DNA of 39,617 bases from positions 1-39,617 of the IMG/VR virus record IMGVR_UViG_3300030060_005413; one strand, 5' to 3'. The position numbers and the translations under genes were made by a program. This document shows, one piece after another, positions 5,157 to 35,097 of the stretch (positions are counted from its first letter, which is position 1; every line of letters starts with the position of its first letter). The notes below the pieces were generated by a model. That model was not told where the DNA came from. It saw only the letters and a list, made by a program, of their open reading frames with translations, and searched no databases. The DNA comes from a virus.

Positions 5157-8100
5157 CTAAGCACCTTTTCCATATCCTAACGCTTGAAATGTAAATTTCA
5201 CATCTATGACTGCATTTGATGAGTTCTTAAAAACTATTGTAAACCCTGCACCACTTATAGAACTTAAAAGAAAAAATGCACCGCTTGGCATATCCTCTGG
5301 AGCTATAGAGATAGAAGGTGAAAATGCTGTGGTTGATCCACCAATGTCACTTGTTCCTGTGAAAAATGGCTTGCCAAAAACAACTGCTAATCCGCTTGCA
5401 CTTGTTCCTGACTGTAAAGGTGTAGAAATAATATTTCCACTTGATTGATATTTATTTTCTGTTCTTGATGGTAAAAAAGCGTCAAAACCTAATTCTGTAA
5501 ATTTTATATTTTCATTGATATCTACTGATATTAAATTACTTGTAAATTTAAAAGCTCTTGCACTAAATGAACCATTAGTTAAATTTTGCTCTGTTGTGAA
5601 ATTTGAGTTATCTTGTGATATTTGAACTTGTAACCTGCTTTTTAAACGATCACTACCAGCACCGTCAAAATTTAATCTTGCATCTAAATCAGGTATAGAA
5701 TCAAATTGATCTGAAACAAAAAAACCTACACTTTTTATATGTCTTTTAAATCTTACATTAGTAAATACAGATCCTAAGTCAAAAACTGAAGCAAATTCAT
5801 AAGTTCCTGTGAGATTGTTTGCCGGATTTGTAAGTTGTAATGCGTTTGAACTAACAGTCACATTAGTTTTTATGCCACTAAATGATGTTTGCTCTCTTTG
5901 GCTTTTTATTAATAATTCATCTGACATCTCAGGTAAACTTAATTCTACTTTTGCCTCTGTTTCTGATACCCTTCCACCTATATCAGCAAATTTTAAAGAA
6001 TAAGTTCCTGTTAAAGCCGGAAGTATTGCTTCATTTGTAGCTCCATTTATGTTTTCATTCAAATCAGTAGAGTTTGCAAAAGTTGCTTGAGCTAAAGCAC
6101 TAGGTGTATGCCTGATAATACATCTTCCACCAAATTCAACATCCAATGATGTTGTTTTAGTCCATGATAATTTTACTTGTGCATTATTTATTGGTTCAAT
6201 TTCTAAATTTGTTGGATTATCAGGAACAGCCGTCAAACCTATAGTGTCAACACTGACCTCTGTAGGACTTGCGCTTCTTTCTCCATTACTATTTATTGTA
6301 AATATCTGTATAACATAAGTTCCAGCCTCAGATGGTAAAATTTCATGCTCTGATTGTTGTGTGTTAACTACAACTGGATTTTCATTATCTTTAGTAAAAA
6401 TTAATTGATACCCAGAAGCACCATCTACAGATTCCCAATCAATAAAAAGCTTTGGAACAGGTCTATTATTATTTAAAACAATTTTTTCTTCTATTGCTTT
6501 TGTACCATCTGATCCGTTAATTATTTGTGGTGATGGTAAAAGAGAAGTTAATAAATTAATATTTTTTACTGGTAATTGCTCACCATCTTCTATTGCTTCA
6601 TATTTATTAGGATTATGAATTATTGCTGTAATTGAAAAACTTTTTTGTTTATTTTCTTTTATATTTACAACTCTGAAAGATTGTGCTGAAAGAGTTGCAG
6701 ATTCTAAAATATATGGGCTATTAACAACAGGGGCTTGTGAAAAATTATCTGATACATTTACTTCATTGCCATTAGTATAATTTGTAATTACCTTTGTTTC
6801 TACCGTTCCATCTGATAACAAACAACTTATAGTTGGGCTGTCGCTTATATCTGGTAAATTAGTCTGTGAAACATCATCTAAAACTATTTTTACATTAGTA
6901 GCAGATTTAACTAAGCCTCCTCTTCTGGTTGCAGCTTTTACTCTGTCAGCAATACCAATTATATTACCAATTCTTAAAACAGAGCCAGCAGCAATATTTG
7001 TTTCAAACATAACTGTTTCTGTTTGGTTTTGCTGTGTTTGTAAAAACCATTTACCAACTCTTTGAGCCATACCACTTGAAGTAATTCCAAAAGTATTAAT
7101 GTTTTTTGTCTGTGTGCCATATTTTTGTTGTGCAGTACTATCTTTTACAGTCACATAATCTATTTCTTGTGTTTCTAAATTTAAATATGAAATATTTATT
7201 ACATTAAATCTTGTTTTAGATGAACTACCAGAATAAACAAATTCACCATTAATTACATTAGCGTTATTAAAAACATAATCAAAACTAATGGCACTTGGAT
7301 TGTCAATATCTTTTGGAGCATCTTGCGCCACTTTTATCGTACCTTCTTCATAATATGGCATTGACCTCATTACAGAACAAATATTTTTAATTACTGCCAT
7401 TGCATCACGTCTATTATTAATATTTACATTTATAGAAAATCTAGGTTCTTGACCACCATTTCCATCATCTACTAATTGACTGCAATATTTACTAACACCA
7501 AAAAAAGAAAAAACGTCTAACTCTGACTCTGGTATTGAACAACCACTAATGCTATCTGTTAAAAGATCATATAGAACAAAAGCAGGGTCACTTGTCCATT
7601 CTTTATCTGTTTTAAAAGAACCATTAAAAGTGCCAGAATAAATTAATCGACCATTTGTATAATCAACAGTCGCATTATGAGGAATTTTTACAAGTTTTCC
7701 TCTTATTCTAAAAATTCTAGAGGGTGCAGAAGTAAATAATTCTGAAGAAAATCTAAGAGAGGAATATGCAATATTAGGATAGTTATTCTGCTCTCTAATA
7801 ATTTGTCTTATTTCTGCTAAGCGCATTGTATTAAAGGTGTTTTCGTCACCAACATCATTTGCTCTTTCAACACTTACAACTACAGGAAAAAAATTTGTTT
7901 CATTAAAATTTGGAAAATCTTTTAAATTTATACCAAAATCTCTTGAATAAGGGTTGAAACTTTTACCAGTGATTGTTTCATCAATCACTGTTGATTGAGA
8001 AGCATTGTTTGGATTGACTTTTATTAAAACTCTGACGCTTGTAGATTCTCTATTACCATTTTCTGTATTAACTTTAAAAAACTGATCAAATTTTACCTTA

Positions 8101-8546
8101 ATTTGAACAGTGTCAATAGATGAATTTGTTATTGTACCTGATCTAGGAGTTGCAGATCCTCCTACTGGAAAGCTACATTCTTGTCCTTTATCACCTGTAA
8201 TAACTTCACTTGATTGTTGTTGTGCTGCAAACAATACTTCATTATTGGCAGTTCCATCTTGAAACTCAAAAGTAAGTCGATCTTTTGGATAATTAAAATC
8301 TGAATCTATAGGACTTGTATTACTTGCATCACCCTGTAACACAGCAGTTTTATTTAAAAATAAATCTTTAAGAAAGGCATTTTTAAATGCAGCACTTGTT
8401 TTATCAGTAATTCTTGCTTTACTTGCAGTTGCAGAACCTTCAATCTGACCTTCTCCTATTACATCAACAACAGTACCAAAATCAATAGATTTAAGTTTAT
8501 CGTTGCCAAGTAAAGCATCAACAATTTTTCTTACCTGAAAGACCAT
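5157..8546 (-). CDS. Tail tip/host specificity protein J-like
   Basis: 1129 aa, the size expected for lambda J. It starts with a VGEGQIEGSATASKARI-type segment at about residues 29-45, close to the phage J N-terminus. It contains a central TAL/J core with DPAFVLYDLLTDSISGC (about residues 320-336), a further J-type segment (SFDYVFNNANVINGEFVYSG), and one or two fibronectin-III-like repeats in the middle (PRPVPKLFIDWESVDGASG and NPTNLEIEPINNAQVKLSW). The C-terminus is variable beta sequence. It caps the tail tip and binds the host surface. Gene order (M, L, K, I, J-like) is exactly that of lambda. Confidence 0.9.
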   Translation of the reverse strand: MVFQVRKIVDALLGNDKLKSIDFGTVVDVIGEGQIEGSATASKARITDKTSAAFKNAFLKDLFLNKTAVLQGDASNTSPIDSDFNYPKDRLTFEFQDGTANNEVLFAAQQQSSEVITGDKGQECSFPVGGSATPRSGTITNSSIDTVQIKVKFDQFFKVNTENGNRESTSVRVLIKVNPNNASQSTVIDETITGKSFNPYSRDFGINLKDFPNFNETNFFPVVVSVERANDVGDENTFNTMRLAEIRQIIREQNNYPNIAYSSLRFSSELFTSAPSRIFRIRGKLVKIPHNATVDYTNGRLIYSGTFNGSFKTDKEWTSDPAFVLYDLLTDSISGCSIPESELDVFSFFGVSKYCSQLVDDGNGGQEPRFSINVNINNRRDAMAVIKNICSVMRSMPYYEEGTIKVAQDAPKDIDNPSAISFDYVFNNANVINGEFVYSGSSSKTRFNVINISYLNLETQEIDYVTVKDSTAQQKYGTQTKNINTFGITSSGMAQRVGKWFLQTQQNQTETVMFETNIAAGSVLRIGNIIGIADRVKAATRRGGLVKSATNVKIVLDDVSQTNLPDISDSPTISCLLSDGTVETKVITNYTNGNEVNVSDNFSQAPVVNSPYILESATLSAQSFRVVNIKENKQKSFSITAIIHNPNKYEAIEDGEQLPVKNINLLTSLLPSPQIINGSDGTKAIEEKIVLNNNRPVPKLFIDWESVDGASGYQLIFTKDNENPVVVNTQQSEHEILPSEAGTYVIQIFTINSNGERSASPTEVSVDTIGLTAVPDNPTNLEIEPINNAQVKLSWTKTTSLDVEFGGRCIIRHTPSALAQATFANSTDLNENINGATNEAILPALTGTYSLKFADIGGRVSETEAKVELSLPEMSDELLIKSQREQTSFSGIKTNVTVSSNALQLTNPANNLTGTYEFASVFDLGSVFTNVRFKRHIKSVGFFVSDQFDSIPDLDARLNFDGAGSDRLKSRLQVQISQDNSNFTTEQNLTNGSFSARAFKFTSNLISVDINENIKFTELGFDAFLPSRTENKYQSSGNIISTPLQSGTSASGLAVVFGKPFFTGTSDIGGSTTAFSPSISIAPEDMPSGAFFLLSSISGAGFTIVFKNSSNAVIDVKFTFQALGYGKGA

Positions 8547-21549: not shown

Positions 21550-22890
21550 TTAATAAAGTCTAACCCCTGTTCTGCGACCTGCACCTAAATGAAGTGGGTT
21601 GAATAATCTCCAACAGATATACCCAAGAGCATCTACTGAGTGGTCATAACCTGCTTCTTTATCTGGTTCTCCTTTTTCAGTATAACTTTGCAGTTCCAAA
21701 CACTCAATTAATTTTTTGGCAGAACTGTGAATTTTTAATCTTGTCTTACCTTTACCATCTTCAAATAATCTTTGAACTGAGTTTACTCTATCTCTTACAG
21801 GTGGGTTTGAAGATGCTGATTGATTTATAAAGCCATGACTTTCAAGTATTTGGATGTCGGTCTTTGAAGCATTTGTACTTCTGTTTCCGCCTGAAGCGTC
21901 AGGGTAGATATAAATTTTATTAAAGGGGTATCTGATTTTGATTTCTTTGGCCAAACTATCAGTGTCATAACTAGCGGTTATTTCATCAAAGACTGTCATT
22001 GAATCACCAAAAGCAACTGCTATCACTGCGTTTGTGTTTCCGATATTAAAATCAATTCCGATTCTTAGTGGCTCATTGTCAATATTTGGCTTCTCTTCAA
22101 TGACATGGGTAGATCTATTAAAACGACTATAGACTACACCTGTTGTTATATTACAGAACTCGCCATTCAGATAAGCCTGTAATAAACCTGCTTCATAGTT
22201 ATCTTCAAGTCTTGAAATAAAATCTGATGGTAAGTGTGGATTATCATAAGTCCTCATTTTTATAAGTCTTCTATCAGTTTTATTTTTTGAATCATTACTA
22301 GCAAAAGTGTTATACATCCAACGAAAACCCTCTGGTGTTGAGGCCACACCAAACTGACGCTGATTACCACTACGCAATCTTGCAAGAATACGAGGAAAAG
22401 CACGGTCTGCAATACTTGGTGCTACTGTATCAATCTCATCTGCAAGAACCCAAGCCAAATTAAGACCGATTATTCTTGACCAATTCTCAAACGATCTACA
22501 CAAAATCTTACTTTCCCCATTAGGCAGATGTAGGGAATACTCGGGTAAAGGGGACTGACGGAGGGTAAATGGTATTCCATACGCTTCTAAAAATGTCTCA
22601 AAATCATTCTGCCAAATATCACGAATAAGCGGTGCAGTAGGTTCCATGACTGCACCTGTGAAACCTTGATTTCTGATAGCCAACTGAACAGCTTTAGCAC
22701 AAAGACTTCTTGTTTTACCTGCACCATAACCTGCTGACAGTCCAATTATTTCTGTTTCTTCATCATTAACAAAATCTAATTGACCTTTGTGAAGATCTAA
22801 CTTGATTGCTTGCAGTATTTCATCAGTATCTAAATCACTTGATGCTGAATTATCTAATATTCTGCCTTCTTGTATATCTAATATGCTCAT
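21550..22890 (-). CDS. terL: Large terminase subunit
   Basis: 446 aa. Walker A GYGAGKT at residues 54-60, Walker B VLADEID at about 148-154, and a motor-coupling motif near GVASTPEGFRWMYN. The C-terminal RNase H-like nuclease has RIGIDFNIGNTNAV (first Asp), YPDASGG (second Asp) and YDHSVDALGY (last Asp). This is the packaging ATPase and headful or cohesive-end nuclease. Its start overlaps the small terminase stop by 4 bp. Confidence 0.95.
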   Translation of the reverse strand: MSILDIQEGRILDNSASSDLDTDEILQAIKLDLHKGQLDFVNDEETEIIGLSAGYGAGKTRSLCAKAVQLAIRNQGFTGAVMEPTAPLIRDIWQNDFETFLEAYGIPFTLRQSPLPEYSLHLPNGESKILCRSFENWSRIIGLNLAWVLADEIDTVAPSIADRAFPRILARLRSGNQRQFGVASTPEGFRWMYNTFASNDSKNKTDRRLIKMRTYDNPHLPSDFISRLEDNYEAGLLQAYLNGEFCNITTGVVYSRFNRSTHVIEEKPNIDNEPLRIGIDFNIGNTNAVIAVAFGDSMTVFDEITASYDTDSLAKEIKIRYPFNKIYIYPDASGGNRSTNASKTDIQILESHGFINQSASSNPPVRDRVNSVQRLFEDGKGKTRLKIHSSAKKLIECLELQSYTEKGEPDKEAGYDHSVDALGYICWRLFNPLHLGAGRRTGVRLY

Positions 22891-23204
22891 TTTATTACCT
22901 GACTAATCTTTGCCATTGTATTTATACAACCTAAAGCAACATGAGGCTGATTATTTCTACGAGCATCTTGAGCTAATGTGCTTAATTGTGATAAAAGTTC
23001 CGCTTGAAATTGCCTTCTATCAATATCCCAATCTGTTGCTATGATTTGATTTGCTTCTCTCAAATATTCATCTACCTGTCTGGGTTTCACCCCCCATTCC
23101 CTTGTGCCATAAGCCACAATTTCACTACGACTAGCATTGCGAGCTTTTAAACCTGCTACCTTTCTTACTCTAAATTCAAATTCTTTTTTTGTAGCTCTCT
23201 TCAT
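22887..23204 (-). CDS. terS: Small terminase subunit
   Basis: 105 aa. Residues 1-55 suit a DNA-binding HTH (RSEIVAYGTREWGVKPRQVDEYLREA) and the C-terminus is helical and likely oligomerises. Placed directly upstream of the large terminase. It would recognise the pac or cos site. The glycosyltransferase-like gene ends one base upstream, so both come from the same message. Confidence 0.78.
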   Translation of the reverse strand: MKRATKKEFEFRVRKVAGLKARNASRSEIVAYGTREWGVKPRQVDEYLREANQIIATDWDIDRRQFQAELLSQLSTLAQDARRNNQPHVALGCINTMAKISQVIK

Positions 23205-23205
23205 T

Positions 23206-24030
23206 TTATTTTTCTTGTAATTTTAAATTAAAAGATTTTGGTTTGTAATTAGGATCTTTAATTAATGGTATATCTTTGAACATTCTCCAATTATTTTTAA
23301 TGTGAAAATGAGGTCTTCCGTATTTGTTTTTTAGCTCTACAACGTCAGGCCATCTTCTTTGTAAAGCTCTAGAACCAAAAGCTCTTATGTCAAGATTTTG
23401 ATATGCAGTACTATTTCCTCCTTTCATACTCATAGTCTTCATTTTTTCTTGAGTTATAAAGGTTGTACCAATTGTGCAGTATTTATGTGCGAGAGTTTGC
23501 AGACATAAATCAACATCTTCATTCCACGGACCTCTCCAATTAAAAGGCAAACTGTTTAAAACACACATACAAGAATAAACGTGAACATTTTTTCTAAAAG
23601 GTACAGGGGTTATTCTTGCATTAGAAAGAAAAGAATAATATGGTCCATATATTCCAACATTTGTCCACTGATCACAAAATTCTTCACATAATCTCAAACC
23701 GAGATGAGGTTCAATTTGTATTCTTGTTCTTCCGTTAAAATGACAAAACCATCTTATATTGTCATCAATCTGCCAATGTCTTAAATCTCCTTGTTTTCTT
23801 GAATAATCAGTAATCCAAGAACGAGGTGGTGCTGAAGTTCCATCATTAAGAAACGGAAGAAGCAATATTTTTTCAGTACCAAATATTTTTTCATATTTAT
23901 CATACTCAGTCTCATCGACTACAAGTTTAAATGGAACTCCATATTCCATAAATAATCTTGGTGTTAAACAGTTTTCAGATCGTTTATGACTTGGTATGAA
24001 TATTGGATATTTAGGTAATATTTTATTCAT
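23206..24030 (-). CDS. TET-associated-type glycosyltransferase (TAGT/GREB1-like)
   Basis: 274 aa. It shows the family layout: PIFIPSHKRS at residues ~9-18, the predicted sugar-nucleotide end, then LVVDETEYDKY, a PPRSWITDYSRKQGDLRHWQIDDNIRWF block whose DDN is the metal/nucleotide-sugar motif (about residue 95), a YGPYYSF segment, and a WRGPWNEDVDLCLQTL block carrying a conserved acidic pair. A KGGN motif follows. Known members (Iyer and Aravind) are predicted to glycosylate modified DNA bases. The donor and acceptor here are unknown. It overlaps the radical SAM gene by 8 bp and precedes terS by 1 bp. Confidence 0.75.
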   Translation of the reverse strand: MNKILPKYPIFIPSHKRSENCLTPRLFMEYGVPFKLVVDETEYDKYEKIFGTEKILLLPFLNDGTSAPPRSWITDYSRKQGDLRHWQIDDNIRWFCHFNGRTRIQIEPHLGLRLCEEFCDQWTNVGIYGPYYSFLSNARITPVPFRKNVHVYSCMCVLNSLPFNWRGPWNEDVDLCLQTLAHKYCTIGTTFITQEKMKTMSMKGGNSTAYQNLDIRAFGSRALQRRWPDVVELKNKYGRPHFHIKNNWRMFKDIPLIKDPNYKPKSFNLKLQEK

Positions 24031-24988
24031 TGTTATAAAGACAATTGCGGCAAGCTGAAATCATTTCCCAATTGTTTTCAGCATGAGCTTTTCTTAAATT
24101 TTGCATTTTTTCGCTTTTCCAAGCTTCTTTTAATGTCATGTCTTTAATATTACCCACAACCAATTCTTTACCCCATAATTTACAGCAAGGTAAAATATCA
24201 CCGCTACTGTCAACTACTAATTGTTTATTAGGAAAACTACAAGGCTTTGGTTTTTCATTTTCAAATAAAGTAAGCCCAGTAACTATGCCCGGAACTTTGT
24301 TCATAGTTTGGAATGTTATTACATCTACAACCTCTGACCATTGCTTTTCAAACATTTCTGCTTCATGTTCGTTGATTTTATTTTTTAAAAAACTAACTCT
24401 TACCTTTGGAAATTCAAGTCCTAACTCATTTCTTCTTTCTACAAGCTTTCTCACATTTCTTACCACAGTCTTATAAAGACCATTTTTTCTTTGCTTGTTA
24501 TAAGTTTCTTCAGTTGCTGCATCAATGCTTATAAAAACTTTAGTCACACCACTATGAAGTAACTTTTCAATTCTTTTGTCAGTTAATAAAGAACCATTAG
24601 TTACAAAATAGATATTAATAATCCCTTTAGATCTTGCATAAGCTATAGCTTCTTCAAGATCTTTACGAAGAAGTGGCTCGTTTATATAGTTTAATTTTAT
24701 TGATTTTGTCCCCATAGATGAAGCTTCGTCTATCAATTCTTTAAACTTCTCAAACTGTATTGTTTCGCCAGTTCTTCCTCCACCTATCCCATGAATACAG
24801 AAAGGACAAGCCATATTACAACTGCCATTCAACTCAAAATCTATTTGAATAGGTGCTTCTGGAACTGTTTTAAAAGTTTCAGCATCTTTTTGATTGTTTA
24901 TATAGTCATCCCAAGCGATGGGATCTGTTTCTGGAGGTCTTTTATATAGAGCCTCAAGATTTTTAATATCAAAAAAGCTGTCACTCAT
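24023..24988 (-). CDS. Radical SAM enzyme with SPASM-type C-terminus
   Basis: 321 aa. CxxxCxxC at Cys57, Cys61 and Cys64 (GSCNMACPFC) binds the SAM-coordinating 4Fe-4S cluster. A GGRTGE segment and LNYINEPLLRKDLEEAI follow in the TIM-barrel core. C-terminal cysteines (PCSFP, DILPCCKLWG, and Cys313/Cys316 at the end) with the GNIKDMTLKEAWKS motif define a SPASM auxiliary-cluster domain. Relatives modify peptides, carbohydrates or nucleic acid bases; the substrate here is unknown. It overlaps the ParB-like gene and the glycosyltransferase gene by 8 bp each. Confidence 0.85.
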   Translation of the reverse strand: MSDSFFDIKNLEALYKRPPETDPIAWDDYINNQKDAETFKTVPEAPIQIDFELNGSCNMACPFCIHGIGGGRTGETIQFEKFKELIDEASSMGTKSIKLNYINEPLLRKDLEEAIAYARSKGIINIYFVTNGSLLTDKRIEKLLHSGVTKVFISIDAATEETYNKQRKNGLYKTVVRNVRKLVERRNELGLEFPKVRVSFLKNKINEHEAEMFEKQWSEVVDVITFQTMNKVPGIVTGLTLFENEKPKPCSFPNKQLVVDSSGDILPCCKLWGKELVVGNIKDMTLKEAWKSEKMQNLRKAHAENNWEMISACRNCLYNNE

Positions 24989-26066
24989 TTACTTCATCTG
25001 AGACATTTACAACTGTTTCACCTTCAAATACATAGTTAAGATGGGCAAATTTATTTTTTTCTTTAAATGGCCACCAAATGTATTTTGTTTTATCTGTTAT
25101 CTCTGCACCAATAAATTTAGCAAATTCATCTCTGTCTTTTTCATTTTCAAAATTTACAATGAGTTTAGGATTTGCCTTTACTGCTTGAAAATCCATAAAA
25201 TCACCCCACTGCTCATCTTCTAGCTTACTTACTTCATCTTTTGATCGGCTTACCAAAAGCAAGTTTTCAATCTTTGCTTTGTCATAGCCTGTGCCTAGTA
25301 AATCATCTTCAACAAGTAATTCTTTCAAAAGCTCACTCATTTCTCTTGCATTAGTCTCTGCTAAATGTGAGACCTCATTATCTGCGGTAAGTAATTTGAT
25401 AGATTTGGTGGAATCAGGTGGGAGGTTCAGTCTCAATATTGGAACTGAAGTCAAACCTAGTAATTTAGCAGCTTCTACAATGCCATGCCCTGCTAAAATC
25501 GTATAATCATTGGCTACGAGTATATTCCTGTAAATACCATTTTCTTTTATTGACTGCTGAAGATGCTCGAGTTGTTCTGGTGGGTGAATTTTATAGTTTC
25601 TAGGATGTGGCTTTATTTTATCTATTGATATTTGCTGTGCTTTTGTTCTAACAAAACTGTCAATATCAAACAAAGAACCTAAATCTTCGTCTGTATCAAA
25701 GTCTTGTAGATCATTTAGTTCTGATAATAGGTTTTCTTCGTGCCATTCAGAAATTTCAGCAATTTTATTATCAGCAATGATATATGCTTTTTTTTCTTTT
25801 TCTGATAATGATTCAACAATTCTACATGGCACAATGGAATACCCTAATTCCAAAGCTGCCCTAAATCTGCCATGACCTGCCAAAATGACTTTGTTCTCGT
25901 CACAGATAATTGGCTGTGTGAAACCAAATCTTTTAATTGCTGCAGATAATGCTTTTATTTGTTCGGCAGAGTGGGTTCTACTGTTCTTCTCGTATTCCTT
26001 TAATTGATCAATTGGTATTTCTGTATTTGTTATAACTGACATACTGATTCTGTTTTTTACAAGCAT
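24981..26066 (-). CDS. Protein with two tandem ParB-like domains
   Basis: 361 aa. Two ParB/Srx-like units: residues ~15-120 with VILAGHGRFRAALELG and a following IIADNKIAE, and residues ~145-245 with TILAGHGIVEAAKLLG and LLTADNEVS. Each has the G-H-G loop that binds nucleotide in ParB; the first keeps the Arg (GHGR), the second has GHGI. A C-terminal domain (PKLIVNFENEKDRDEFAKFIG, then TKYIWWP) is unlike a methyltransferase, the usual phage partner. Start could be 26066 or the ATG at 26042. First large gene of the late operon. Confidence 0.8.
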   Translation of the reverse strand: MLVKNRISMSVITNTEIPIDQLKEYEKNSRTHSAEQIKALSAAIKRFGFTQPIICDENKVILAGHGRFRAALELGYSIVPCRIVESLSEKEKKAYIIADNKIAEISEWHEENLLSELNDLQDFDTDEDLGSLFDIDSFVRTKAQQISIDKIKPHPRNYKIHPPEQLEHLQQSIKENGIYRNILVANDYTILAGHGIVEAAKLLGLTSVPILRLNLPPDSTKSIKLLTADNEVSHLAETNAREMSELLKELLVEDDLLGTGYDKAKIENLLLVSRSKDEVSKLEDEQWGDFMDFQAVKANPKLIVNFENEKDRDEFAKFIGAEITDKTKYIWWPFKEKNKFAHLNYVFEGETVVNVSDEVNE

Positions 26067-26369: not shown

Positions 26370-26480
26370 AATTATAATACAATTAATTTAATTGTAATAC
26401 AATTGTAAATAATCTGAAACATTTTAATTATAATACAATTATTACAGATTAGTAACAATCATTGTAATTGTAATACAATT
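26370..26480. promoter_or_regulatory. Divergent promoter with four palindromic operators
   Basis: Four copies of the 15-bp palindrome AATT(G/A)TAATACAATT lie at 26370-26384, 26390-26404, 26426-26440 and 26466-26480. They separate the leftward late operon from the rightward early genes. On the plus strand TTGTAA at 26468-26473 is followed 17 bp later by TATAAA at 26491-26496, a rightward promoter. On the minus strand TTGTAT (26402-26397) is followed 17 bp later by TATTAT (26379-26374), a leftward promoter. The -35 boxes lie within the palindromes, so a bound protein would control access to RNA polymerase. Confidence 0.7.
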
Positions 26481-26514
26481 GATGGTATTATATAAATATA
26501 CACAAGGAGGACAA

Positions 26515-26745
26515 ATGACTACTACTCACAAAACTCAGGAACAAATCAAACTTGAGGATATTCAAAACTGCAAACAGGTCGAAAAACTTGTTGATACTTA
26601 CGCAGAAATGTATGACTTGAACTGCACCCAAGCCTTAACTGATTGCTTGTTAACTCTTGTAAGACAAGGCGATTTTACAACTGCTGATGCTATCGAGAGA
26701 TTAAATAATACAAATGACGAGTATATGGAGGAAATGGGATTATGA
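26515..26745 (+). CDS. Small hypothetical early protein
   Basis: 76 aa from the ATG at 26515, chosen because a strong Shine-Dalgarno AAGGAGGA is 3 bp upstream; longer in-frame starts lie in the promoter. Sequence is helical and acidic: KLEDIQNCKQVEKLVDTYAEMYDLNCTQALTDCLLTL, then GDFTTADAIERLN. No family recognised. It is the first gene of the rightward early message and overlaps the next by 4 bp. Confidence 0.7.
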   Translation: MTTTHKTQEQIKLEDIQNCKQVEKLVDTYAEMYDLNCTQALTDCLLTLVRQGDFTTADAIERLNNTNDEYMEEMGL

Positions 26746-26975
26746 AATTTGACAAATCAAAACTTCTCTTAAAAATACTTGAGAATTTCTATGACAAGAA
26801 CAATGTTGAGGAATCTGAACGCTGTGACGCTGAAACTTATTTCTTTGAAGACAATGACAAAGCAAATGAATGGCTCGAAAGATACTGTTGGATTTGGGAA
26901 TCTGCTGAAGCTAGAAAATTTACAAAAAACAACTACAAATTTACGAAACCTACAGGGGTTGGTAGGGAGATTTAA
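26742..26975 (+). CDS. Small acidic hypothetical protein
   Basis: 77 aa, helical and acidic, with an aromatic-rich segment ANEWLERYCWIWESAEARKF. It overlaps the previous stop by 4 bp (ATGA). Its TAA is shared with the start of a palindromic operator at 26974. Function unknown. Confidence 0.65.
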   Translation: MKFDKSKLLLKILENFYDKNNVEESERCDAETYFFEDNDKANEWLERYCWIWESAEARKFTKNNYKFTKPTGVGREI

Positions 26976-27028
26976 TTATATTACAATTGTTACAGTTTTA
27001 TTAAAAGGGTTGTAATTGTATTACAATT
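26974..27028. promoter_or_regulatory. Paired palindromic operators with promoter
   Basis: Copies at 26974-26988 and 27014-27028, 40 bp apart, with a conserved TTACAGTTTTAT between them. TTGTAT at 27016-27021 and TATAAA at 27039-27044 are 17 bp apart. The downstream leader continues with an AAAGGAGG ribosome site. The block is almost a copy of the one before 26515, so both probably arose by duplication. Confidence 0.65.
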
Positions 27029-27062
27029 AATGGTATTATATAAATATACCAAAGGAGGCACT

Positions 27063-27245
27063 ATGACTCAACTAAAAACAATCGACCAAACTTGCAACAC
27101 TATCATTGATAACGCAATTCTACTAAATACACAATACACAAAAGCTGAGGTTGAACAAAGGTTGGTCGAATGGACAGGTCTTGCTCGTCACCTTGCAACA
27201 CAGGTTGCGGATGAAGTTATGACTGAACTTGCCAAAATTGGTTAA
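27063..27245 (+). CDS. Small hypothetical early protein
   Basis: 60 aa from the ATG at 27063, preceded by AAAGGAGG at a good spacing. Amphipathic helix layout (KAEVEQRLVEWTGLARHLAT), no membrane segment. Unknown function. Its leader is a near copy of that of the gene at 26515. Confidence 0.65.
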   Translation: MTQLKTIDQTCNTIIDNAILLNTQYTKAEVEQRLVEWTGLARHLATQVADEVMTELAKIG

Positions 27246-27259
27246 GTTCAATCTACCTT

Positions 27260-27313
27260 TATTGTATTACAATTGTTACAGATTTATTAATTACCAACAA
27301 TTGTATTACAATT
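27260..27313. promoter_or_regulatory. Paired palindromic operators with promoter
   Basis: Copies at 27260-27274 (first base T rather than A) and 27299-27313, 39 bp apart, again with GTTACAGATTTAT between them. TTGTAT at 27301-27306 lies in the second copy; a TAATAA or overlapping TATAAT follows. AAAGGAGG then precedes the ATG at 27349. Confidence 0.62.
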
Positions 27314-27348
27314 AATGGTATAATAATAATATAAACAAAGGAGGCCAA

Positions 27349-27501
27349 ATGACTAACTTCGAACTTCAAACAATCAAAAACGAAATCCTCGAAATGGCTC
27401 CTCTTGCAACTTTGGCTATTGAAAAATGCCAAAACAATTTACCAAAACTCATTGAACTAAAAAAAGCTGTTCTTGAGGATATCTACGGAGAGGACTACTA
27501 A
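27349..27501 (+). CDS. Small hypothetical early protein
   Basis: 50 aa: MTNFELQTIKNEILEMAPLA and then NNLPKLIELKKAVLEDIYG. Helical and acidic. AAAGGAGG is 5 bp upstream. The stop overlaps the next ATG (TAATG). Unknown function. Confidence 0.65.
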   Translation: MTNFELQTIKNEILEMAPLATLAIEKCQNNLPKLIELKKAVLEDIYGEDY

Positions 27502-27668
27502 TGACTATCAATCAAAAGCGAAATCAACTAAAAAGAAAACTTCGTCAACAAGAAGCATGGTTAAGGAACCCTCCACATCATCTAGGAATTACTGAAGCTG
27601 ATGTTGAATTTGAGAAAAAAGTTTATGGAATTCTTTACAGAAAACTTGAGCAATTACAAAACTTATAA
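27501..27668 (+). CDS. Small basic helical protein
   Basis: 55 aa: MTINQKRNQLKRKLRQQEAW and then a coiled-coil-like end (EFEKKVYGILYRKLEQLQNL). Basic N-terminus. It is coupled to the upstream gene by a 1-base overlap and followed by a terminator 8 bp later. Function unknown. Confidence 0.65.
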   Translation: MTINQKRNQLKRKLRQQEAWLRNPPHHLGITEADVEFEKKVYGILYRKLEQLQNL

Positions 27669-27675
27669 GCAACAA

Positions 27676-27703
27676 AAAAGAGGGAGCTACCACACCCTCT
27701 TTT
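27676..27703 (+). terminator. Rho-independent terminator
   Basis: Stem of nine pairs AAAAGAGGG (27676-27684) with CCCTCTTTT (27695-27703), loop of ten. The T-run is modest, but position just after a stop fits the end of the first early message. Confidence 0.7.
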
Positions 27704-27717
27704 CTGATACCAAATTG

Positions 27718-27749
27718 ACTTAAGTTTTAACGCACCGTGTAACTTAAGT
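27718..27749. repeat. Inverted repeat ACTTAAGTT / AACTTAAGT
   Basis: Nine-base arms at 27718-27726 and 27741-27749 with a 14-base spacer, in a 131-bp gap without a confident gene. The arms also contain the palindrome ACTTAAGT on their own. Could be an operator pair, a second transcription signal, or part of a replication origin; nothing decides this. Confidence 0.5.
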
Positions 27750-27799
27750 TGGAGACATAGACAGATGACTAGGCTGCCTACAATTGTATTATATCAGAT

Positions 27800-28084
27800 A
27801 TGAAAGACCTTTCAACAATTAACAGAGTCTACATTAACTTAAACAACAATGAGTTAAAGCGACTTATAAAACAATTAGAAAATAAAAATCAATCTATTGA
27901 TTGGTGGTCAGTTATCGACAAATCAAAAGACGCTGATCCTCTGCGTGCTACAGCGATTGATAAAGCAAGAATTAGATCTGCCATGAGATATCACGAGACA
28001 GGTGGACCTAAGAAACGAAGAACACAAGATAAAAGAAAAGAAGTTGTAATGAGCAGAACGGAAATAAGAAAAAGAGGTTTGTAG
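27800..28084 (+). CDS. Basic hypothetical early protein
   Basis: 94 aa. The N-terminus is helical (NRVYINLNNNELKRLIKQLENK), the middle has DWWSVIDKSKDADPLR, and the C-terminus is basic (GPKKRRTQDKRKEVVMSRTEIRKRG). The charge suggests DNA or RNA contact. A partial palindrome starts at 27782, 18 bp before the ATG. No family recognised. Confidence 0.65.
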   Translation: MKDLSTINRVYINLNNNELKRLIKQLENKNQSIDWWSVIDKSKDADPLRATAIDKARIRSAMRYHETGGPKKRRTQDKRKEVVMSRTEIRKRGL

Positions 28085-28103
28085 TATTACTGAGTGTTAC
28101 TTC

Positions 28104-28138
28104 AATTGTTTACAAATACTTATAATTGTATTACAATT
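28104..28138. promoter_or_regulatory. Palindromic operator before the DUF932 gene
   Basis: A perfect copy at 28124-28138 and a degenerate copy at about 28104-28117, 20 bp apart. The ATG at 28164 is 25 bp downstream, with no good -10 or Shine-Dalgarno sequence. May regulate the DUF932 gene. Confidence 0.55.
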
Positions 28139-32508: not shown

Positions 32509-32562
32509 ATTTGTAATACAATTGTTACAGTTTTATCAAATAGGTTTAATTGTAATACAATT
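32509..32562. promoter_or_regulatory. Paired palindromic operators with promoter
   Basis: Copies at 32509-32523 (ATTTGTAATACAATT) and 32548-32562, 39 bp apart, with GTTACAGTTTTAT between. TTGTAA at 32550-32555 is followed by TATAAA at 32572-32577, 16 bp apart. Leader then has AAAGGAC before the ATG at 32603. Same architecture as the pairs at 26974 and 27260. Confidence 0.65.
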
Positions 32563-32602
32563 ATGTTATTATATAAATATACCAAACCAAAGGACTTTTA
32601 AA

Positions 32603-32911
32603 ATGGACATCTTTGACCGCAACATTGAACGCAAAATCGCACTTCAAAAAGCAATTGACAAAGCTGAAGCTGCAATTCAAGAAACAGAAGAATATCAACT
32701 TCTTCAACTTTTGAAAAAGCAAAGAAAACTTTTACCTAATAATCAATGCTACACAATGTCTGACTTTGAATGGACAAAGGCACAGCAACTTGGACCTGAA
32801 GCACTTGCTGCACACCGCAAAGAAATTGATGACCAAAACAATGCTGACTGGGATCACAATGAAAAGGTTTATCAAGCATTCTGTCGTGTTCAAAGAGTTA
32901 ACCCTTTCTAA
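32603..32911 (+). CDS. Hypothetical early protein, helical
   Basis: 102 aa from the ATG at 32603, which has AAAGGAC upstream; the longer frame reads into the promoter. Coiled-coil N-terminus (DIFDRNIERKIALQKAIDKA), then CYTMSDFEWTKAQQLG and a C-terminal QRVNPF. No family recognised. Its stop lies within the following terminator hairpin. Confidence 0.65.
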   Translation: MDIFDRNIERKIALQKAIDKAEAAIQETEEYQLLQLLKKQRKLLPNNQCYTMSDFEWTKAQQLGPEALAAHRKEIDDQNNADWDHNEKVYQAFCRVQRVNPF

Positions 32912-32926
32912 GGTTAACTCTCTTTT
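32894..32926 (+). terminator. Rho-independent terminator overlapping a stop codon
   Basis: GAGTTAACC (32895-32903) pairs with GGTTAACTC (32912-32920), followed by TCTTTTTATT. It overlaps the end of the gene at 32603. Confidence 0.8.
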
Positions 32927-32943
32927 TATTGACATTTCACTTT

Positions 32944-32958
32944 ATTTGTATTACAATT
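32944..32958. promoter_or_regulatory. Single operator abutting a start codon
   Basis: ATTTGTATTACAATT at 32944-32958, two bases before the ATG at 32961. There is no space for a -10 box or ribosome site, so it could act by blocking transcription from upstream or by controlling translation start. Confidence 0.45.
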
Positions 32959-33635: not shown

Positions 33636-34105
33636 TGCTTATAGAAACTAAACCTTTACTTATTCATGTTCTAGGAAGACCTGCACCTCAAGGCAGTAAA
33701 GTTTCTACGAGATATGGCGGAATGTTAGAAGCTAGTAAATTCGTAGCACCTTGGAGAAATCAAGTAGTTTCTGCTTGTGTTGAGCAGAGAATCAATGAAG
33801 GTAAAGTTATTACTTGCCCTGTAAAAATTGAAATTGATTTTACTTTTTATAGGCCAAAAAGTCATTACGGAACTGGTAAAAATGAAAAGTTGAAAAAATT
33901 AACAGCACCAAGATTTCCTACAAAAAAGAATACTGGGGATATAGATAAACTTTGCAGATCAACTTTAGATGGATTATCAATAAGTAGTGGTGGGGTTTTA
34001 CTTGAAGATGATTCTTTAGTAACTGAATTGATTGCTAGAAAAATATATGTACCCATGGAAACACCCAACAGACAGGGAGCTTGGATAAGGATAACCAAAT
34101 TATGA
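33632..34105 (+). CDS. RusA-like Holliday junction resolvase
   Basis: 157 aa. GRPAPQGSKVSTRYGG at residues 15-30 (RusA normally has PxPKxRPR), FTFYRPKSHYG, then NTGDIDKLCRSTLDGLSI (about residues 100-117), and LLEDDSLVTELIARK with two acidic residues. This D-x-D-K-x(5)-LDGL ... DD pattern is the RusA catalytic signature. Resolves recombination intermediates or frees concatemers for packaging. The start may be the second of two adjacent ATGs. Confidence 0.88.
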   Translation: MMLIETKPLLIHVLGRPAPQGSKVSTRYGGMLEASKFVAPWRNQVVSACVEQRINEGKVITCPVKIEIDFTFYRPKSHYGTGKNEKLKKLTAPRFPTKKNTGDIDKLCRSTLDGLSISSGGVLLEDDSLVTELIARKIYVPMETPNRQGAWIRITKL

Positions 34106-35097
34106 ACGTATTAGTTACTGGGGGTGCAGGTTACATTGGTTTAAATGTATGCGCTGAACTTTTTAAAAAAAATTACAAACCAATTATTTTTGATAATTTT
34201 TCTAATAGTAATATTTACGGAGTAAAGCAGCTAGAAAAATTAATTGGAAAAGTAACTGTTATTGAGGAAAATTTAATTAATTTACCAAAAGTTGTTGAAG
34301 TTTTAGAAAAATATGAAATAGGTGCTGTCATTCATTTAGCAGGTTGGAAATGTGTACCAGAATCTGAAAAAATTCCGCTTTGGTATTACTTCAATAATGT
34401 TGCTTGCTCAATAATACTTTTTAATGCCATGCAGCGTGTTGGTATAAAAAAAATTATTTTTTCAAGCTCTTGTTCTGTTTACGGAAACACAAAAAAGTAT
34501 CCGATTTATGAAGATACTGAAACTAATCCTATTAGCACTTACGGAAAAACAAAATTAACAGTTGAAAATATTTTACAAGATTGGTTCAGAACTGATCCCA
34601 ATATGCAAATAAATTTGTTGAGATACTTTAATCCTATTGGTGCTGTAATAAACTTAGGGGATTGTCCTCCTAAAGTACCTGACAATCTCTTACCTTTTAT
34701 AACACAAGTTGCTTTAGGTAAAATTGATAAATTACAAATATATGGAAATGATTTTGAAACATACGACGGGACTGGAGTAAGAGATTATATTTACATTGAA
34801 GATCTTGCTTATGGTCATGTTGCTGCACTTGAATATCTTAAACCAGAGTGTGAAGTTTACAATTTAGGTACAGGCTTTGGTCATAGTGTTCTTGAAATTG
34901 TTGAGAAATTTCAAGAAATAACTGGTGTTAAAATTCCTTATGAATTTGCACCAAGAAGATTTGGTGACTGTGCGGTAGCTGTTGCTGATGTTGAAAAAGC
35001 ACGAGAAGTTCTTAATTTTAAGTGTTGTTATGATTTGGATTGGATGATTAGATCTGCGTGGGATTTTCAAAAAAACTTTCCAAACGGCTACGTTTAG
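34102..35097 (+). CDS. galE: UDP-glucose 4-epimerase
   Basis: 331 aa from the ATG that overlaps the RusA stop. Full-length match to GalE: NAD loop GGAGYIG (residues 7-13), VIHLAGWK, SSSCSVYG with the catalytic Ser/Tyr region, YGKTK (catalytic Tyr and Lys), LLRYFNPIGA, DGTGVRDYI, and EFAPRRFGD. It interconverts UDP-glucose and UDP-galactose (or the GlcNAc forms). Embedded in a recombination operon, it looks acquired for a phage need: either glycosylation of phage DNA or of host surface glycans. The DCAVAVAD segment replaces the bacterial DLPAYWAD. Confidence 0.93.
   Translation: MNVLVTGGAGYIGLNVCAELFKKNYKPIIFDNFSNSNIYGVKQLEKLIGKVTVIEENLINLPKVVEVLEKYEIGAVIHLAGWKCVPESEKIPLWYYFNNVACSIILFNAMQRVGIKKIIFSSSCSVYGNTKKYPIYEDTETNPISTYGKTKLTVENILQDWFRTDPNMQINLLRYFNPIGAVINLGDCPPKVPDNLLPFITQVALGKIDKLQIYGNDFETYDGTGVRDYIYIEDLAYGHVAALEYLKPECEVYNLGTGFGHSVLEIVEKFQEITGVKIPYEFAPRRFGDCAVAVADVEKAREVLNFKCCYDLDWMIRSAWDFQKNFPNGYV

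Follow-up and report, generated by a model that had tools for sequence, protein, structure and literature searches.

A ParB–TAGT gene pair ahead of the phage terminase genes, with an accessory radical SAM enzyme, as a candidate DNA-glycosylation module

The TAGT of T-even phage glycosylates DNA (PMC13216743), and homologous proteins take part in the hmC glycosylation of Aeromonas T4-like phages such as Aeh1 and phiAS5 (PMC13216743). In Nonlabens phage P12024L, a tailed phage with a PF20691 protein, a TET gene adjoins the TAGT gene. A TAGT is found without an alpha-GT or beta-GT in 288 of the 753 phage genomes that carry glycosyltransferases, and the 2026 survey that reported them left its role open in these phages, which have no known DNA glucosyltransferases (PMC13216743). 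In the RB69-type arabinosyl-hmC phages, it has been proposed that a sugar-nucleotide pathway encoded by the phage works together with a DNA glycosyltransferase (PMC6024577). ParB-like proteins also accompany DNA-modifying enzymes in phages. Verrucomicrobia phage P8625 encodes a fusion of ParB with a DNA methyltransferase upstream of the terminase, and ParB is found repeatedly next to CmoX, a phage DNA carboxymethyltransferase (PMC12783734).

The locus described here lies in the window, by which we mean the whole analysed 39,617-nucleotide stretch of DNA from an uncultured phage (IMG/VR record IMGVR_UViG_3300030060_005413). Genes for a ParB protein, a radical SAM enzyme (rSAM) and a TAGT glycosyltransferase are followed by terS and terL (Table 1). 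A preliminary description had the three genes chained by 8-bp overlaps and continuing with 1-bp spacing into terS and terL. Both overlaps, ParB/rSAM and rSAM/TAGT, are exactly 8 bp and TAGT is separated from terS by 1 bp, but terS shares 4 bp with terL. Its family calls were reproduced, with a ParB_N domain upstream of terS-terL that matches in two stretches (5.8e-19; PHROG 620, 1.6e-75), Radical_SAM (1.2e-19) with SPASM (1.2e-15), and PF20691 (1.1e-29; 104.4 bits versus a cut-off of 27.5). The terS product falls in an unannotated family (PHROG 34910), is kept in relatives and is assigned from its place before terL. The galE gene of the window did not figure in the earlier account of the cassette.

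Table 1. Positions of the cassette genes, their domains and motifs, and galE in the window
Feature	Position	Strand	Length or residues	Remarks
ParB	24981-26066	minus	361 aa	two ParB/Srx repeats and C-terminal TAGT-linked domain
ParB repeat 1	25686-26024	minus	residues 15-127	
ParB repeat 2	25257-25643	minus	residues ~142-270	
parbC (name given here)	24984-25226	minus	residues 281-361	C-terminal domain of ParB
rSAM	24023-24988	minus	321 aa	radical SAM, SPASM/twitch C-terminus
rSAM cluster motif	24797-24820	minus	C57-x3-C61-x2-C64	invariant in A1
rSAM auxiliary-cluster cysteines	24041-24241	minus	C250, C268, C313, C316	invariant
TAGT	23206-24030	minus	274 aa	PF20691 glycosyltransferase
TAGT motif	23758-23766	minus	D89-D90-N91	both Asp invariant in 10 diverse TAGTs
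terS	22887-23204	minus	105 aa	1 bp downstream of TAGT
terL	21550-22890	minus	446 aa	Pfam Terminase_6N/6C
galE	34081-35097	plus		UDP-glucose 4-epimerase; away from cassette

The locus resembles each of these systems in part. It shares PF20691 with the TET/JBP-TAGT phages, and a relative of the window phage (L081) has a Tet_JBP-like gene in the same position before terS, but the window lacks TET/JBP and its TAGT is partnered by ParB and a radical SAM protein. Aeh1 has a large genome with a thymidylate-synthase (TS)-family enzyme, and the Aeromonas TAGTs carry at their N-terminus the domain that we call parbC; in contrast, the window has no TS-family gene and parbC is part of the ParB protein. 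The locus differs from the ParB-methyltransferase and ParBc-CmoX systems (PMC12783734) in that its enzyme is a glycosyltransferase and is joined by a radical SAM protein. RB69 uses an hmC substrate and another transferase, ORF003c (PMC6024577).

The nearest annotated relatives of the window TAGT are beta-glucosyl-HMC-alpha-glucosyltransferases (PHROG 842, 4.9e-31), several of them from phages with a TS-family enzyme. The D89-D90-N91 sequence is the probable metal/nucleotide-sugar motif. An AlphaFold prediction of the protein made from 8 close sequences had a pLDDT of 37. No second glycosyltransferase family (alpha-GT or beta-GT, for a first sugar) was found among those window ORFs that were scanned with Pfam or PHROGs. 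In the ParB protein, repeat 1 has a GHGR67 motif and ADNK that are invariant across clade A, the clade of the window. The Arg of the GxxR motif is replaced in repeat 2 (GHGI/V), so nucleotide binding by this repeat has probably been lost.

The parbC domain links the two proteins, as in other phages its homologue forms the N-terminal domain of the TAGT. When its 81 residues were searched with tblastn against 50,697 phage records, 8 records matched and all were TAGT genes. HMMs built here confirmed the domain in the TAGTs of POP12, henriette and 1.076.O and gave 0 decoy hits, and in one phage (L236) ParB, parbC and TAGT form a single polypeptide. The ParB-methyltransferases (Vibrio phage D93) were considered as further carriers of parbC and rejected, since the domain was not found there. 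By Pfam, no methyltransferase domain is fused or adjacent to the window ParB; a relative (L086) has one.

A lack of conservation of the homologues as neighbours had been set beforehand as one half of the condition that would overturn the hypermodification reading, and the neighbours proved to be conserved. Chance does not explain the arrangement. Relatives whose contigs span the cassette keep its gene order down to 55-66% identity, and their overlaps are identical or similar to those of the window (Pfam scans of the unassigned 269-aa and 288-aa ORFs in relatives were negative). ParB, rSAM and TAGT are all under purifying selection, with dN/dS of about 0.015-0.16, comparable to terL. A parbC-bearing gene lies directly upstream of TAGT in 53 of 69 diverse TAGT loci and is fused to it in 2 more; at the level of clusters at 70% identity, the linkage is seen in 33 of 43. 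The preliminary description took the trio as the unit, and this holds for ParB and TAGT as neighbours but not for rSAM, which is missing from most pairs. What is conserved at the core is ParB together with TAGT; this pair is found again in dozens of widely differing phages, and the order ParB-TAGT-terS-terL is seen with several terL types. A collinear sister contig (clade B) is 77-80% identical to the window in terS, terL and portal but only 47% in ParB and 42% in TAGT, which indicates that the pair has been exchanged or has diverged as a unit.

The contents of the position before terS vary among relatives. It holds ParB-TAGT with rSAM in clade A, ParB-TAGT with a UDP-xylose synthase in clade B, ParB then TAGT in L102, a fusion of ParB with an N6/N4 DNA methyltransferase in L082, L086 and L095, and the Tet_JBP-like gene (PF12851, below the curated cut-off) in L081. 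The exchange of ParB-TAGT, ParB-DNA-methyltransferase and TET/JBP-like genes marks this position as a DNA-modification slot. Many relatives have no modification gene in it, and the TAGT of other phages can lie away from the terminase.

The occurrence of nucleotide-sugar genes tracks that of TAGT. The window GalE scores 383 bits against TIGR01179 (cut-off 262) and 295 bits against E. coli GalE, and is a probable donor-sugar enzyme for the cassette. Within the terL family of the window, PF01370 is present in 11 of 16 contigs with TAGT and in 0 of 24 without. The clade B enzyme is a UDP-glucuronate decarboxylase (414 bits to human UXS1). Across diverse loci the enrichment of SDR genes is weak (9/211 near TAGT versus 1/204 far from it, p=0.02).

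The top PDB match of rSAM, both by sequence (3.7e-17) and by fold, is BtrN, a radical SAM twitch enzyme (2-deoxy-scyllo-inosamine dehydrogenase). The auxiliary cysteines of rSAM align without gaps to C169/C187/C232/C235 of BtrN and number four, as in the BtrN twitch, compared with seven in a full SPASM domain. However, the proteins are only 20% identical and BtrN belongs to a bacterial antibiotic pathway with another substrate context. By analogy, rSAM would most likely oxidise or epimerise the sugar in the manner of BtrN, and activation of a base is less likely. A viperin-like defence role (PADLOC pVip, 8e-16) was set aside, since pVip matches no more than the radical SAM core, whereas the BtrN match extends over both halves. 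The rSAM gene is a lineage-specific accessory, present in 1 of 28 long contigs with ParB-TAGT pairs. In two lineages an rSAM gene separates ParB from TAGT, and the rSAM proteins of the two have no significant BLAST similarity to each other. A search of genome contigs with rSAM returned one phage contig (L139, binned as Maricaulis) and only weak bacterial rSAMs, with neither ParB nor TAGT near that of Colwellia (L140), the sole neighbourhood inspected; a search of the phage collection for near DNA gave zero matches.

In agreement with the preliminary description, no TET/JBP or TS-like gene was detected. TET/JBP (PF12851) is absent from the window genome and from all clade A and B contigs, and the same tool recovers PF12851 from P12024L and also, with a score under the curated cut-off, from L081; one TET search gave no control signal and is counted only together with the control-backed searches. 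The TS family (PF00303; dCMP/dUMP hydroxymethylase) was not found in the window genome; the controls gave positive results, and the family was also detected in Aeh1, henriette, Kuja and POP12. The cultured Vibrio phages 1.076.O and 1.124.O encode parbC-TAGT with neither a TS-family nor a TET/JBP gene. In most ParB-TAGT pairs no known hydroxylase was recognised.

Taken together, the cassette is quite likely a DNA-glycosylation (hypermodification) module that is targeted by ParB and whose product is tailored by rSAM. We infer all three of the acceptor (DNA), the sugar and the role of ParB from context and homology. The ParB protein would bind or slide along the phage DNA and recruit the TAGT, with parbC, part of the TAGT itself in other phages, serving as a linker or docking domain. 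The TAGT would then move a sugar from a UDP-sugar onto a base of the phage genome ahead of packaging. The donor would probably be UDP-galactose, via the phage GalE, in the window phage and UDP-xylose in clade B, and the twitch-type rSAM would be an accessory acting on the product. The general proposal of DNA hypermodification has good contextual support from slot swapping, the domain common to ParB and TAGT, and the sugar-nucleotide genes that track the TAGT. The evidence against it is that there is no recognised enzyme for the hydroxyl group used by characterised TAGTs. A route free of hydroxylase is a tentative answer of rather low probability, in which the ParB-guided TAGT would join a sugar directly to an unmodified base and rSAM would remodel the DNA-bound sugar in two phage lineages. 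An exocyclic amine, where the N6/N4 methyltransferases fused to ParB in this slot add their methyl groups, is an example of such a site.

The division of labour first envisaged, with rSAM making the base handle (for example by activating the thymine methyl or a different position on a base) in place of TET/JBP and TAGT glycosylating it, is doubtful. It would account for a genome without TET/JBP or TS-family genes and for the location of rSAM between the other two genes, which is seen in two lineages with unrelated rSAMs, and radical SAM enzymes act on bases during phage thymidine hypermodification. Most ParB-TAGT pairs, however, have neither rSAM nor a recognised hydroxylase. The acceptor must therefore in general come from elsewhere than rSAM, whose target may instead be the sugar; the BtrN-like class oxidises sugar or cyclitol alcohols rather than hydroxylating carbon.

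Protein and glycan maturation likewise employs GT-A glycosyltransferases accompanied by nucleotide-sugar enzymes, as well as radical SAM enzymes of the SPASM type, and the cassette might instead glycosylate an envelope glycan or a protein of the virion or the host, its proximity to the terminase being incidental. We consider this unlikely, as the cassette swaps with DNA methyltransferase and TET/JBP-like genes in its slot, ParB and TAGT have a domain in common, the closest annotated TAGTs are enzymes of glucosylated HMC, several with a TS-family enzyme in the genome, and the order through terL recurs with several terL types. That same recurrence right before terS-terL, with ParB-like DNA binding, could also suggest that the cassette marks particular DNA sites, such as a site of packaging, for recognition by the terminase and does not serve to protect the genome from restriction. 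This is very improbable given that ParB-methyltransferase fusions fill the slot, many relatives package with no modification gene there and TAGTs elsewhere lie apart from the terminase.

For TAGTs like those of the 288 genomes, the ParB-TAGT pair offers a recurrent partner, a common domain, candidate donors (galactose and xylose) and sometimes a radical SAM step, which opens the question of their role to testing. Should a hydroxylase truly be absent, the pair would represent an undescribed route for attaching sugar to DNA, and such glycosylation would bear on phage evasion of restriction and CRISPR and on DNA-labelling tools.

The window, a 39.6-kb uncultured virus record with siphophage-type structural genes, carries genes for a two-ParB protein, a radical SAM/SPASM enzyme (rSAM) and a TAGT glycosyltransferase (PF20691) upstream of terS and terL. 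The 8-bp overlaps that chain the three genes and the 1-bp gap between TAGT and terS, as given in the preliminary description, are exact, and terS overlaps terL by 4 bp.

Layout of the cassette and terminase genes in the window
Feature	Position	Strand	Domains
Two-ParB protein	24981-26066	minus	ParB x2
Radical SAM/SPASM enzyme	24023-24988	minus	
TAGT	23206-24030	minus	
terS	22887-23204	minus	
terL	21550-22890	minus	

IMG/VR was scanned with each protein and the neighbourhoods were annotated. The order ParB–rSAM–TAGT is kept in every relative whose contig spans the region, with protein identities from 97–100% down to 55–66% (lowest in L020 and L059); homologues of the trio are thus conserved neighbours, consistent with the preliminary description. 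dN/dS for the three genes is 0.015–0.16, like that of terL. Three relatives (L019, L020 and L059) have a different terL (28% identity) and retain the cassette genes and the portal, although L019 is a short contig that covers TAGT and terS alone of the cassette region. Between terS and terL, L020 also has an additional ORF of 269 aa (7315-8124) that belongs to no known family. Next to a DUF932 gene, many relatives (L003, L006, L008, L013, L015, L139) have an ORF that measures at most 288 aa, falls in no known Pfam family and is absent from the window. L139, a 7.3-kb contig binned in a Maricaulis MAG, bears the ParB–rSAM genes and neighbouring window genes; it is a phage contig within a bacterial bin and a weak hint of the host. 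Elsewhere in the window (26371-28137 and 32510-32957), the palindrome ATTGTAWTACAAT occurs in twelve copies with at most one mismatch (0.16 expected), preceding small plus-strand genes and in some cases lying within a promoter-like repeat of 98 nt (at 26423 and 26971). It is probably the operator of a phage regulator.

The gene content directly upstream of terS varies among 80 relatives fetched by terL alignment and compared where this region was readable. The slot holds ParB x2–rSAM–TAGT in the window's clade (clade A), UDP-xylose synthase–ParB x2–TAGT without rSAM in a collinear sister clade (clade B), ParB then TAGT in L102, a ParB–DNA methyltransferase fusion preceded by a DnaN-like clamp in L082, L086 and L095, and a Tet_JBP-like dioxygenase in L081 (2.2e-7, 30.7 bits, short of the curated cut-off of 34.9). 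Many other relatives surveyed have no modification gene directly upstream of terS. The trio is read as a DNA-modification system chiefly because the recognisable enzymes in the slot modify DNA. The gene for the DnaN-like sliding clamp, which has Pfam DNA_pol3_beta domains, sits immediately before terS or the ParB–methyltransferase gene in L086 (3448-4488) and at many clade C and D loci.

The core of the cassette is the ParB–TAGT pair. In an alignment of ten diverse TAGTs, the C-terminus of the window ParB protein proved similar to a stretch at the N-terminus of the enzyme from several phages of Vibrio and Pectobacterium. When the 81 residues of this ParB C-terminus (parbC) were searched alone, 8 of 50,697 phage records matched at E≤1, and each match is an Aeromonas phage TAGT gene. 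The sharing was confirmed with HMMs of the domain, which gave no matches to reversed sequences. Used as a query, the alignment of diverse TAGTs yielded at least 74 further loci at 34–55% identity. Among the best-scoring of the matches listed, which are not independent so that the fractions hold for that sample only, parbC is on the ORF directly upstream of TAGT in 53 of the 69 loci having a TAGT ORF, usually preceded by one or two ParB repeats, and is fused to TAGT in 2 more; after clustering at 70%, the linkage is present in 33 of 43 clusters. In L236, ParB, parbC and TAGT form one 515-aa chain. At least 24 of 34 large ORFs after TAGT match one or another of various terminase large-subunit families, and hence the order ParB–TAGT–terS–terL recurs with unrelated terminases. 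TAGT domains also occur in tandem within one protein (L185:2924-4657), and Vibrio phage Kuja (L045) has two TAGT genes side by side; such arrangements may produce two-sugar chains.

DNA glycosylation by TAGT-family enzymes and ParB–methyltransferase fusions are already known. Solitary TAGTs have been remarked on as unexplained (PMC13216743), and ParB has been noted beside a DNA-modifying enzyme with no function assigned (PMC12783734). A literature search, whose coverage did not extend to the survey of Iyer et al. 2013, found no description of the ParB–TAGT pair, the shared domain or an rSAM within the pair.

Sugar-nucleotide genes co-occur with TAGT. The window GalE scores 383 bits against TIGR01179 and 295 bits against E. 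coli GalE. Within the cassette and terL family, 11 of 16 contigs with TAGT carry an epimerase-family gene, versus 0 of 24 without (exact one-sided p∼2e-6, with contigs not independent and several negatives being fragments). In clade B this gene, directly before ParB, is a UDP-glucuronate decarboxylase (414 bits against human UXS1). Over the part compared, which is most of the contig, clade B contig G013 is collinear with the window; terS, terL and portal are 77–80% identical versus 47% for ParB and 42% for TAGT, GalE is absent, the cassette lacks rSAM, and the sole epimerase-family gene is the UDP-xylose synthase. Hence, the ParB–TAGT pair and the sugar gene change together on a conserved backbone.

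The window rSAM contains a CX3CX2C motif and four auxiliary-cluster cysteines (250, 268, 313 and 316), which in an ungapped alignment fall on BtrN Cys 169, 187, 232 and 235, the auxiliary-cluster ligands of that enzyme. BtrN, which oxidises a cyclitol alcohol, is also the top fold match of the rSAM model (pLDDT 71, pTM 0.76, N-terminal 40 residues poor). Apart from clade A and L171, a close relative of it, an rSAM gene is present on 1 of 28 long TAGT contigs, a rarity that argues for an accessory role. This second rSAM, with no significant similarity to that of the window by BLAST, likewise sits between the ParB/parbC gene and TAGT (L227, L250 and L251). That two unrelated rSAM proteins share this position suggests that they work with the pair. 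Relatives of the second rSAM lie after TAGT (L252) or have no TAGT nearby (L253 and L254); that in L253 is near a uracil-DNA-glycosylase/exonuclease protein and that in L254 is fused into a 612-aa protein.

The substrates of characterised TAGTs are bases that have been hydroxymethylated or carry a sugar already. PF12851 and PF00303 were undetected in the window, in agreement with the earlier statement that it has no TET/JBP or thymidylate-synthase-family gene, and in the clade A and B contigs and 28 long TAGT contigs, many of the records searched being fragments. A thymidylate-synthase-family gene is present in four phages with parbC–TAGT fusions (Aeh1, henriette, POP12 and Kuja); neither gene type occurs in 1.076.O and 1.124.O, two small phages of Vibrio. 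The acceptor hydroxyl may come from an unrecognised or host enzyme. The missing hydroxyl is the weakest point of the DNA-modification reading and also its most interesting one.

We propose that ParB would place TAGT on DNA and that TAGT would add galactose in the window phage or xylose in clade B. The rSAM would tailor the sugar, which we prefer to the earlier suggestion that it modifies a base to make the handle; its role and the sugar's attachment point are the least certain parts of the mechanism. The resulting sugar modification would shield the phage genome.
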